From Verrucomicrobiota bacterium (lineage in GTDB: Bacteria > Verrucomicrobiota > Verrucomicrobiia > Chthoniobacterales > UBA10450), in the NCBI GenBank assembly GCA_003221195.1, contig QHQO01000029.1, positions 1 to 47,253 of the forward strand: 47,253 nt of DNA, written 5' to 3'. Within the stretch, counting starts at the first letter, position 1. The number at the start of each line of letters is the position of its first letter. The notes below the pieces were generated by a model. That model searched no databases and was not told where the DNA came from. It saw only the letters and a list, made by a program, of their open reading frames with translations. A program made the position numbers and the translations under genes. Shown one piece after another: positions 26,934 through 30,466 of this stretch.

Positions 26934-28910
26934 GTGCGCGCCGAACTTACCATTCGCGGGATAATTATAGGCGTCATCATCACGCTGGTGTTCACCGCGG
27001 CCAATGTGTACTTCGGTCTCAAGGCAGGTCTCACGTTTTCGACGTCGATTCCAGCGGCGGTGATTTCGATGGCGATCCTGCGCGCTTTTCGTGACGCGAC
27101 TATTCAGGAAAACAATATTGTGCAGACGGTTGCCTCAGCGGCAGGCACACTATCGTCGATCATTTTCGTGCTGCCGGGTTTGATCATGATTGGCTGGTGG
27201 ACTGGTTTTCCGTTCTGGATCTCTTTCGCAATTTGCGCGTTGGGCGGCATTCTGGGCGTGATGTACTCGATCCCGCTGCGGCGCGCGTTGGTGACTACGT
27301 CTGACCTGCCGTATCCCGAAGGCGTCGCCTGCGCTGAGGTTCTGAAGGTCGGCAGTACCAGCGATACCGCGCACGCTTCCGACATCGAACACGGGCGCGC
27401 AGGTCTGCTTGCCGTGTTGTGGGGATCGATCGTGGCAGCTGCATTTGCGGTGATCGTGGCCACGCAACTGTTTGCCTCAGATCTGGCGCAAACCTTTCGA
27501 ATCGGCAGGCGCGGTGCGGTGAGCGGTTATGATTTCTCTCTTTCGTTCGCGCTGCTCGCCATTGGACATTTGGTTGGTCTTTCGGTCGGCCTTGCAATGC
27601 TCATCGGCGCCGTGATCGGCTGGGGCTGGGGAGTGCCGCACTACTCAGCGCTCGTGCAAGACTTCAGTACCAGCGCGGCGGCGCTCGCGCAGAGCACCTG
27701 GAGCCGTAAGGTGCGTTTCGTCGGCGCGGGCGCGATAGGTGTGTCAGCCGTTTGGACCTTGCTCAAATTGGTAAAACCCGTCGCCAAGGGTCTCGCCGGC
27801 GCGATGGCCGCATCGCGCGCACGCAAAGCGGGCAAGGCAGACACGCTGCCGATTACCGAGCGTGATATCCCTATCGGCATTGTCGGTCTTGTCACATTGG
27901 CTTGCATGCTCCCGATTGGCTGGCTGCTCGGCTATTTCGGCACTGCGAGCGGTCTCGGCGCGCATGTAACAACGCTCATTATCGGCGGCGTCGCCTACGT
28001 CGTATTGATGAGCTTCTTCGTCTCGGCGGTTTGCGGTTACATGGCTGGTCTGATCGGTTCCTCCAACAGTCCGCTGTCGGGGATTGGCATTCTGGTCGTC
28101 ATTGGCGCTGCGTTGCTGCTCGTGTTCGGGATTAAGCCGTACGTGTCGCCGGACGCGAGTAAGGCATTGATGGCGTTCGCGCTTTTTACCACCGCAGTAA
28201 TCTTCAACGTTGCCGCGATTGCGAACAATAACCTGCAGGATCTAAAGACCGGTCAGTTGGTTGATGCAACGCCGTGGAAGCAGCAAGTGGCGCTCGTGAT
28301 CGGTGTAGTCGCGGGTTCGTTCGTGATTCCGCCGGTTCTTGATCTGGTGAACCATGCTTACGGATTCGTGGGCGCCCCGGGTGCTGAGCTGCGGCACAAT
28401 CCATTACCGGCGCCACAGGCCGGGCTGATTTCTTCGCTAGCACGGGGGGTGATCGCTGCTGATATCGACTGGAGTTTAATCCGGACCGGCGGATTGATCG
28501 GTATTTGCATCATTCTGCTGGACGAAATCCTCGCGCGCACGACCCGACACATGCGTGTTCCTCCACTGGCCGTCGGTCTTGGAATTTATCTCCCAACGCA
28601 GAGCACTTTGATGATCGTGGTCGGCGCGGTCGCGGGCTGGGTCTTCGACAAACGAGCTGAACGCAGCTCCAGGCCGGACGCAACGAAGCAGCTCGGGGTG
28701 CTACTGGCGTCGGGCTTGATCGTCGGCGAGAGCGTGATCGGCGTGGTGATCTCCGCAATTGTCGTGTTCTCTGGTGTATCTGCACCGCTGGCGCTCGTTG
28801 GGTCAGGCTTCGGAACCGCTGCGATTATCATCGGAGGGGTTGTATTCGCCGCTACTGCAATAGTACTTTATCGGTGGATCCTGCGGATGGGGACTACAAA
28901 ATCGACATGA
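26934..28910 (+). CDS. OPT family oligopeptide transporter
   Basis: 658 residues from GTG 26934 (MRAELTIRGIIIGVIIT), with about 14-16 membrane helices. The N-terminal signature ANVYFGLKAGLTFSTSIPAAVI and the segment TSDLPYPEGVACAEVL are typical of bacterial OPT proteins. They import peptides such as glutathione, or metal chelates, with protons. The stop overlaps the next start as ATGA, so it is probably coupled to the selenoprotein peroxiredoxin downstream. No Shine-Dalgarno is visible at the GTG. Confidence 0.92.
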   Translation: MRAELTIRGIIIGVIITLVFTAANVYFGLKAGLTFSTSIPAAVISMAILRAFRDATIQENNIVQTVASAAGTLSSIIFVLPGLIMIGWWTGFPFWISFAICALGGILGVMYSIPLRRALVTTSDLPYPEGVACAEVLKVGSTSDTAHASDIEHGRAGLLAVLWGSIVAAAFAVIVATQLFASDLAQTFRIGRRGAVSGYDFSLSFALLAIGHLVGLSVGLAMLIGAVIGWGWGVPHYSALVQDFSTSAAALAQSTWSRKVRFVGAGAIGVSAVWTLLKLVKPVAKGLAGAMAASRARKAGKADTLPITERDIPIGIVGLVTLACMLPIGWLLGYFGTASGLGAHVTTLIIGGVAYVVLMSFFVSAVCGYMAGLIGSSNSPLSGIGILVVIGAALLLVFGIKPYVSPDASKALMAFALFTTAVIFNVAAIANNNLQDLKTGQLVDATPWKQQVALVIGVVAGSFVIPPVLDLVNHAYGFVGAPGAELRHNPLPAPQAGLISSLARGVIAADIDWSLIRTGGLIGICIILLDEILARTTRHMRVPPLAVGLGIYLPTQSTLMIVVGAVAGWVFDKRAERSSRPDATKQLGVLLASGLIVGESVIGVVISAIVVFSGVSAPLALVGSGFGTAAIIIGGVVFAATAIVLYRWILRMGTTKST

Positions 28911-29695
28911 AACAAAGCTGGAATTGGTCGCTCTGGATCGGGTTCCTTTTCGCGTTGGCTGGTTTCTTCAGCTACACATTTTTCGCGCAATTCCCAATCA
29001 CGCGCGATTTCCCCTGGGCGAATCTCTTGTTGTTTGCTGCGGGCGGAATTTGTCTCGTGGTGGGACTATTCCGTGCATTTGGCAATGCCCGGGCTTATCG
29101 CGGCAAGATCTTCGGACCAATTTTGTCCACGCTGGCGATATTGATGTTCGGTTTATTTTCTTACGTTCTCTTCTACGAGCTGCGACAGGTCCCGCCTTCA
29201 ACTGCTGCGCCGCGAGTCGGACAAAAAGCGCCCGAGTTTACGTTGTCGGATCAAGATAGGAAGGATGTGTCTCTTCGTGATCTCGGTAGCAAATCGAAAG
29301 CCGTCGCGCTGATTTTTTATCGCGGTTTCTGGTGACCATTGTGTAACTCCGAGTTGCGGAGTTTCCAGCAAAGGCTTCCGGAACTTGAATCGCGCGGGAT
29401 TCACGTCGTTGCGATTAGCGTGGACCCACCGGAAATCAATCGGCGCCAACGACAAAAGCTTGGCTACACCTATACATTCCTGTCCGATCCAAAGGCGGAA
29501 GTGATTCGGCGTTACGATCTGTTGCATCGCGGCGCAGGACCTAAAGGGACGGATATCGCGCGCCCGGCAGAGTTTCTCATTGATTCGAGCGGAATAATCC
29601 GCTGGGTGAATCTCACCGAGAACATCGCCGTACGTGCGCGTCCAGAACAGGTGCTGGAGGTCTTCGAACAGGGTGAGCAACGTGCCTCTCAATAG
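28907..29695 (+). CDS. Membrane-anchored peroxiredoxin-like selenoprotein (Sec at in-frame TGA 29333-29335)
   Basis: The frame reads through a single TGA at codon 143 to give 262 residues with an AhpC/TSA domain. Three membrane helices occupy about 8-28, 38-58 and 68-90. The redoxin domain then starts VGQKAPEFTLSDQD, continues VALIFYRGFW, Sec143, PLC146, then NSELRSFQQRLPELES, VVAISVDPPEINR, YTFLSDPKAEVIRRYD and IARPAEFLIDSSGIIRWV. Homologous proteins have Cys at this position (RGxWCPxC). Both halves share the frame and the same domain, which argues against two genes. A stem-loop follows the TGA. Three helices suggest the domain faces the periplasm, if the N-terminus is inside. Likely a peroxide or disulfide reductase. 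A nonsense mutation is the less likely alternative. Confidence 0.87.
29329..29368 (+). promoter_or_regulatory. Bacterial SECIS-like stem-loop
   Basis: After the TGA comes a 9-base spacer, then AACTCCG (29345-29351), loop AGTTG (29352-29356) and CGGAGTT (29357-29363), a perfect 7-bp stem. A lower stem CTGG (29329-29332) with CCAG (29365-29368) would enclose the TGA. The loop begins 16 bases after the TGA and has G as its second base, in line with the published bacterial SECIS consensus as I recall it (apical loop within roughly 16-37 nt, G among the first two loop bases). Confidence 0.8.
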
Positions 29696-29761: not shown

Positions 29762-30466
29762 GTGCACCCGGAACTGGAACAACTTCTTATCCTTCAAGAT
29801 CGACAGCAGAAGATTCGGCAAATCCAGAGCGAGATCGAGACCGTGCCGCTGCGACGAACGAGTCTTGAAGCGCAGCTGGCAGCAAGCGCAAGTGCGGTAG
29901 ACGCACTGAAACAAAAGGCGCGCCAGGTCGAAGTGGACCGGAAGAGGCTTGAGCTCGACGTGGGGACACGCACGGAATCCATCTCGCGTCTCAAGACGCA
30001 GCAGTATCAGACGCGGAAGAACGATGAATTTCAGGCGCTCGGCCACGAAATCGAGCGGTACGAAAATGAAATTCGCAAGATCGAGGATCAAGAGCTCGAA
30101 CTGATGGTGCAAGCTGACACAGTTAAGGCCGACCTGGTTGAAGAAGAAAAGAAGGCGGCCAGCGTCAAAGAATCAATCGCACGGCAAACGGCTGATCTCG
30201 ACGAAAAGTCGAAAGCTTTGCAGTCGCGCCTCGAAGAATTGACCAGGGAACGCGCAGAATTGGCGACAAAAATCGATGAGGATTTGCTTTCACGTTTCGA
30301 GCGTCTTTTTAACAGCAAAGGCGATGCTGCAATAGTCGCAATCGAGCATGGAGTCTGCACGGGGTGCCACATGAAGGTGACGAGTGCGACCTCGGCCAGT
30401 GCCAGAGCCGGGAAAGAGATCGTGAGTTGCGAGAATTGCGGCCGTATTCTCTACGAAGCGCCGTGA
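29762..30466 (+). CDS. Coiled-coil protein with C-terminal C4 zinc ribbon
   Basis: 234 residues starting at GTG 29762. Residues about 5-180 form a long antiparallel coiled coil rich in Gln, Glu, Arg and Lys. The C-terminus has the C4 zinc ribbon VCTGCHMKV ... SCENCGRILY. It matches the DUF164/zf-RING_7 family, whose biochemical role is only partly known; nucleic-acid binding has been proposed. It is 66 bp downstream of the selenoprotein on the same strand. Confidence 0.88.
   Translation: MHPELEQLLILQDRQQKIRQIQSEIETVPLRRTSLEAQLAASASAVDALKQKARQVEVDRKRLELDVGTRTESISRLKTQQYQTRKNDEFQALGHEIERYENEIRKIEDQELELMVQADTVKADLVEEEKKAASVKESIARQTADLDEKSKALQSRLEELTRERAELATKIDEDLLSRFERLFNSKGDAAIVAIEHGVCTGCHMKVTSATSASARAGKEIVSCENCGRILYEAP

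Follow-up and report, generated by a model that had tools for sequence, protein, structure and literature searches.

The window analysed here, a stretch of 47,253 nucleotides, is contig C176 (QHQO01000029.1) of a 3.1 Mb metagenome-assembled genome (MAG) of a member of the Verrucomicrobiota (276 contigs, 86.8% complete, 4.3% contamination), and it carries, directly downstream of a gene for an OPT-family transporter, a gene that, judging by its sequence, almost certainly encodes a selenoprotein (Table 1). The frame opens with ATG at 28907 and closes with TAG at 29693-29695; a TGA, predicted to be read as selenocysteine (Sec), is its sole internal stop, and the read-through product has U at position 143, within the motif RGFWUPLCNSELRSFQ. 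A listing of open reading frames under standard rules yields two pieces, 28874..29335 and a TTG-started 29339..29695, and both match the AhpC/TSA domain PF00578: the read-through protein scores 108.1 bits, the part after the TGA 63.2 and the part before it 25.5, with a cut-off of 26. Thus, the initial annotation of this locus, which described a selenoprotein anchored in the membrane by three helices and having UPLC as its active site, a single frame broken by the TGA alone, one redoxin domain on both sides of it, and a gene that gene callers would split, leaving a TTG-started downstream half, is borne out by the frame check, the listing, the domain matches and the further sequence tests described below. 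Among the best 80 of 157 relatives, the nearest to this gene come from a Verrucomicrobia MAG (L102, 94%) and a Candidatus Udaeobacter MAG (L054, 87%); because the latter is the closest genus-named record, the source is most likely a Candidatus Udaeobacter-like soil verrucomicrobium.

Table 1. Features of the selenoprotein locus and the selD gene of the same genome
Feature	Position	Strand	Description or basis
OPT-family transporter gene	26934..28910	+	PF03169, 347.3 bits; directly upstream, 4-nt overlap (ATGA) with the selenoprotein gene
Predicted selenoprotein gene	28907..29695	+	262 aa, three predicted membrane helices and redoxin domain; TGA read through as Sec143
Three hydrophobic helices, residues 11-27, 39-55, 72-88	28937..29170	+	hydropathy; AlphaFold2 helices 7-21, 37-59, 69-91
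AhpC/TSA domain PF00578	29216..29605	+	residues 104-233, Pfam match
TGA codon in frame, predicted to encode Sec (U143 of UPLC)	29333..29335	+	TGA conserved in relatives; five distant homologues have TGC
Predicted bacterial SECIS hairpin AACTCCG-AGTTG-CGGAGTT	29345..29363	+	pairing, covariation, synonymous constraint, bSECIS criteria
selD with in-frame TGA	L022:6029-7087 (own-genome contig C202)	-	TGA in active-site loop CAGUASK

How faithfully is this TGA kept in evolution? Within the GTDB family of the source, 34 of 83 genomes gave a homologue match at E<=1e-20, some of them of a fragment only, and an alignment of the window with 27 of 29 loci (L023 and L044 were excluded because the matched region has an additional stop) has TGA at the same codon in all 28 rows. 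A scan of species genomes with this family alignment returned 157 relatives, the best 80 of which were used as wider loci, and TGA occupies the site in 80 of 80; the two sets share genes, since 26 of the 27 loci from the family recur among the 80. By title these loci come mostly from Verrucomicrobiota and Acidobacteriota, with single records from Deltaproteobacteria, Binataceae, Nevskia and Bacillota. The contig filed under Deltaproteobacteria (L064) carries a verrucomicrobial version of the gene and verrucomicrobial neighbours and groups with Verrucomicrobiota in the tree; on account of these neighbours and this grouping, it is probably mis-binned. The wider scan employed the search pattern DIARPAEF and another with Cys at the site, and the 80 loci were presumably retrieved via DIARPAEF, so that residues 216-223 are invariant by construction, which does not apply to the TGA.

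A second survey covered 396 genomes of the phylum of the genome of L080 (G467, filed under Terriglobia), with up to six candidates scored per genome. A match at E<=1e-20 was found in 52 of them, and among 30 loci compared at the site, 27 have TGA (three being genes already among the 80) and three have TGC (L162, L163, L166). The same TGC is present in two distant verrucomicrobial homologues, L052 and L053, from a search in which 5 of 387 genomes of the phylum gave matches; in L052 a stop follows five codons downstream. The comparison of position 143 that the initial annotation had called for hence turns up both residues, with Sec codons throughout the wider loci and Cys in these five more distant relatives. 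In a midpoint-rooted tree of 108 of the 111 loci and the window (L052, L081 and L102, with short or broken flanks, were omitted), the four remaining Cys rows stand together (85/76), apart from a group of 92 rows that all have Sec (99/100); the window belongs to this group and none of the four Cys rows does. The bootstrap is unsettled, the root is a midpoint one and the Cys rows sit where long branches join, so the tree does not give the direction of the Sec/Cys change. As for the four weaker homologues in the same genome, the site is Thr in L002 (TxxC type) and Cys in L004, whose alignment is otherwise poor, and for L003 and L005 no aligned site was obtained.

The hairpin AACTCCGAGTTGCGGAGTT, a predicted bacterial selenocysteine insertion sequence (SECIS), begins 9 nt past the TGA, and its loop begins 16 nt past it; the stem has 7 bp and the loop, AGUUG, has 5 nt with G at the second position. 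This geometry agrees with the bacterial SECIS (bSECIS) model as set out in a passage of PMC13188914, namely a loop of 3-9 nt, an upper stem of 4-16 bp, a G in the first two loop positions and a distance of 16-37 nt from the UGA. Of the 28 family rows, 26 share the 20 nt AACTCCGAGTTGCGGAGTTT without a change, and L036 and L047 differ. Pairing statistics were obtained for 81 rows (77 distinct) and 500 shuffles: 91.8% of the hairpin cells are paired, compared with 25-55% when one arm is slid; 19 cells are changed on both sides, compared with a shuffled mean of 4.1; and the covariation score is 0.157, compared with 0.097 in the shuffles, none of the 500 reaching either of the last two values. In the double changes, C-G replaces U-A in 10 rows at one pair, and U-A replaces C-G in 9 rows at the next. 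Since the two outermost A-U pairs are absent in 25 and 19 of the 77 rows, the core of the hairpin consists of five pairs. Furthermore, among six-codon windows of the gene, synonymous constraint peaks at codons 147-152 (mean excess 0.80, against a median of 0.07 over 247 positions), and the 42-nt fold of the window has an energy of -14 kcal/mol (z -3.43). In a sister branch of seven loci (L147, L148, L150, L151, L152, L154, L155), the TGA is kept, two or three helices are predicted, and in six loci a different possible hairpin, CTGCAAGGTTTGCAG with a GGT loop, lies farther downstream, which hints at a SECIS re-formed at a different place.

The machinery for decoding is at hand: tRNA-Sec, selD, selA and selB all lie on one strand of contig C202 (13,561 bases) of the same genome, which thus possesses all four components that the initial annotation deemed necessary. 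The tRNA was detected by ARAGORN with anticodon tca and matches Rfam RF01852 at 63.9 bits (gathering threshold 47), and the NCBIfam scores are 373.8 bits for SelD (cut-off 125), 482.9 for SelA (267.9) and 344.1 for SelB (242.25). The selD frame starts with an ATG preceded by GGAGGTG and adjoins tRNA-Sec, selA and selB; given the in-frame TGA in its CAGUASK loop, at least one further selenoprotein is predicted in this genome. TGA also serves as an ordinary stop, ending the OPT gene (28908-28910), a downstream zinc-ribbon gene (30464-30466) and selD itself. A search of the genome for further selenoproteins with the hairpin model R1 recovered the window (E 5.8e-15) and two weak matches (E 0.024 and 0.372) that we took for chance.

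The sequence downstream of the TGA is under purifying selection. In nine close rows (36 pairs), the ratio of nonsynonymous to synonymous differences (pN/pS) is 0.28 for codons 1-95, 0.37 for 101-142, 0.08 for 144-154 and 0.17 for 155-250, which, together with the conservation seen in the alignment, upholds the expectation that the region past the TGA would be preserved. The gene also tends to co-occur with SelB, counted as present when a match reached E<=1e-60. Within the family, SelB was found in 29 of 34 genomes with a homologue and in 21 of the 49 that lack one (Fisher p 1e-4, kinship ignored); for genomes with >=90% completeness and <=5% contamination, the figures are 8 of 8 and 12 of 22 (p 0.029, kinship again ignored). 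Outside the family, 21 of 22 carrier genomes, picked by title from the 80 loci, have SelB, one of the 21 being the genome of the possibly mis-binned L064.

What kind of protein would be made? The AlphaFold2 model has a mean predicted local distance difference test score of 82.6 and a predicted template modelling score of 0.69, and within the redoxin domain the former is mostly 75-96 per ten-residue block, with 75 for the active-site block. Helices 2 and 3 are joined by a loop with three K/R and no acidic residue, and because the positive-inside rule places such a loop in the cytoplasm, the redoxin domain would be periplasmic. Three hydrophobic segments precede the site in 54 of the 80 wider loci and 0, 1, 2 or 4 in the other 26, by a crude hydropathy count that includes broken and cut-off copies. 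More divergent relatives (L156-L161, L164, L165) have TGA at the site and one hydrophobic segment before it; in L159 the frame continues for 445 residues past the TGA, suggesting a fusion.

The top Foldseek matches are the peroxiredoxins (Prx) Bcp4 (E 3.5e-14) and AhpE (E 5.9e-14). C146, a Cys that all 81 rows keep, aligns with the peroxidatic Cys; U143, whose codon directly follows a TGG (Trp) in all 81 rows, aligns with the Ser of 2cx3 (SxxC) and the Thr of AhpE 1xvw (TxxC); and P220, which may act as the cis-proline known from thioredoxin-type enzymes, aligns with the catalytic Arg116 of AhpE, the register being fixed by the Ala at this site in the R116A entry 4xih. The protein thus shares the fold and the position of C146 with AhpE and Bcp (PrxQ), but differs in its membrane anchor, in the Sec that replaces the TxxC Thr/Ser and in the Pro at the place of the catalytic Arg. 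The label "peroxiredoxin" given in the initial annotation therefore holds for the fold, as modelled by AlphaFold2 and matched by Foldseek, and fails for two of the three catalytic residues. The PF00578 domain and the UxxC motif that characterize Prx-like oxidoreductase selenoproteins are both in place. Because Sec replaces the Thr/Ser and Pro220 the Arg, exchange at the UxxC pair looks likelier than peroxiredoxin catalysis, and Prx-fold UxxC thiol:disulfide oxidoreductase is likely the better name.

The window protein stays under the cut-off of every one of the 21 NCBIfam models listed for it; the other 27 family members were compared with NCBIfam by E-values. The best score belongs to the ResA model (NF002854; 52.9 bits, far below the cut-off of 170). 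ResA has a CxxC-type pair, a feature that the protein shares with ResA-type thiol-disulfide oxidoreductases, from which it differs by its three predicted helices and Sec. With the SelL-related redox protein (NF040769; 49.7 bits, below the cut-off of 120) it has the Prx-like redox domain in common.

In 24 of the 80 wider loci, the gene is preceded on its own strand by an OPT end. The 4-nt overlap was identified by script in 13, and ATGA can be read in the letters of four more (L102, L103, L107, L120), for which the automatic choice of start gave none or another one. Counting any position, 26 of the 80 loci have an OPT match, 29 a zinc-ribbon match and 27 a YchF match, the latter two genes being downstream in the window. 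Nearly all loci with such neighbours are verrucomicrobial, and among the records filed under Acidobacteriota only L112 has an OPT match. The arrangement suggests the hypothesis of a functional link between the selenoprotein and the OPT transporter.

Taken together, these findings make rather probable a scenario in which SelB and Sec-tRNA decode the UGA at 29333 as selenocysteine, as directed by the hairpin immediately past it, to yield a protein anchored by its three N-terminal helices with the redoxin domain facing the periplasm. Sec143 and Cys146 would then form a thioredoxin-like UxxC pair within a peroxiredoxin fold, in which Sec might attack the disulfide of a substrate, or some other sulfur compound in oxidised form, and a thiol reductant would then re-reduce the selenenylsulfide formed between Sec143 and Cys146. 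In Udaeobacter-like genomes, the overlapping genes imply that the selenoprotein is translated together with the OPT transporter, with which it would cooperate.

Several observations have to be set against this scenario. With regard to the hairpin, two of the five pair measures are not above the shuffles (double-change pairs, 2 compared with 1.8; further pair types, 5 compared with 4.7), and the double changes, being confined to one acidobacterial group, may reflect a single event. The 42-nt fold energy is not unusual in three examples from Acidobacteriota (z -1.65, -1.38 and -0.23), and with z values this weak free energy alone is insufficient to reveal the hairpin there. The selenoprotein gene and the sel cluster reside on different contigs of the MAG, which leaves room for a binning error. 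No SelB match was found in 5 of the 34 family genomes with a homologue (MAGs that are 78-84% complete) nor in 1 of the 22 carrier genomes outside the family (G469). Some copies are broken beyond the TGA, by a second stop in L102 and by frame shifts in L103, L107, L120, L131, L081 and L044, which may be MAG assembly errors or gene decay. Finally, the proposed disulfide specificity and topology are read from residues and charge.

Could the same protein be a Sec-dependent peroxidase, with Sec143 or Cys146 reducing hydroperoxides at the membrane surface in the manner of Sec-peroxiredoxins and GPX-like proteins? The peroxiredoxin fold with Bcp4 and AhpE as its top matches, the strength of the PF00578 match (108.1 bits) and the placement of C146 at the peroxidatic position all speak for this possibility, which we nevertheless consider unlikely, given that Sec stands in place of the TxxC Thr/Ser, Pro220 in place of AhpE R116, and the motif is UxxC, whereas Sec-Prx have TxxU (both motifs are tabulated in PMC13188914).

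Reductive dehalogenation or another special Sec chemistry comes to mind by analogy with the deiodinases, which are membrane-anchored proteins of the thioredoxin fold. The combination of an N-terminal membrane anchor with a Sec domain of the thioredoxin superfamily fits such a role, and an NCBIfam model related to deiodinases gives a very weak match (12.7 bits, E 0.065); this match is, however, far under the cut-off of 250 bits, and the second Cys of UxxC, kept in 81 of 81 rows, suggests ordinary thiol exchange, which leaves this kind of chemistry very improbable. Even less credible is a genuine stop, that is, a degenerate or split gene consisting of a 142-residue membrane stub and a redoxin fragment that is non-functional or separately started: the splitting of the frame by gene-finding rules and the broken frames in copies from some relatives speak for it, but the site is always TGA, never TAA or TAG, in 80 of 80 loci, the sequence past it is under purifying selection, the hairpin is conserved and the genome has the Sec machinery. 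Reassignment of UGA to another amino acid in this lineage, such as Trp as in genetic code 4, would likewise open the frame, but its chances are negligible considering that TGA terminates the OPT gene, the zinc-ribbon gene and selD, that distant homologues have Cys at the site, and that Trp (TGG) already precedes it in every row.

The selenoprotein reading with UxxC exchange places this protein in known company. Prx-like thiol:disulfide oxidoreductase selenoproteins that combine PF00578 with UxxC or UxxU are described in passages of PMC13188914, Prx-like selenoproteins with UXXC in those of PMC1088965, and Prx-like 1 and 3 in those of PMC2398784. Like the protein analysed here, they have an AhpC/TSA or redoxin domain with Sec first in a thioredoxin-like UxxC motif, whereas a three-helix anchor is not mentioned in these passages. 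The kind of protein is therefore not new, UxxC Prx-like selenoproteins having long been known, and the three-helix subfamily may coincide with the tabulated "Redoxin family protein, UxxC" (HEU0032618.1 / MBA3499694.1). More generally, no three-helix UxxC selenoprotein appears in the passages of PMC13188914, PMC9312934, PMC2398784, PMC1088965, PMC1794560, PMC12013277 and PMC5029168. Four selenoproteins in three families are tabulated for Acidobacteria (PMC1794560) and three known selenoprotein genes are reported for the acidobacterium Occallatibacter riparius (PMC12013277); the present family could be among those counted. The latter source also states a limit of the deep-Sep method, namely the need for Cys homologues among the best hits (PMC12013277). 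Searches with such a requirement could overlook genes like the one in the window.

A more far-reaching proposal, which we hold to be quite doubtful, is that of an obligately selenium-dependent, periplasm-facing UxxC family that has Sec throughout its main clade and, translationally coupled in Udaeobacter with the OPT transporter, reduces disulfide-linked or otherwise oxidised substrates for uptake. If true, this would amount to an obligate, OPT-coupled selenium-dependent system in a family of soil Verrucomicrobiota and Acidobacteriota, and Udaeobacter would be bound to selenium. Udaeobacter is very abundant in soils, and with the gene described here this uncultured lineage gains a concrete, testable selenium requirement. 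The analysis also adds a membrane-anchored subfamily of predicted selenoproteins that gene callers split in two. The 92-row clade being free of Cys forms, with four Cys rows available for comparison, this subfamily lends itself to the question of why Sec has been retained in preference to Cys.

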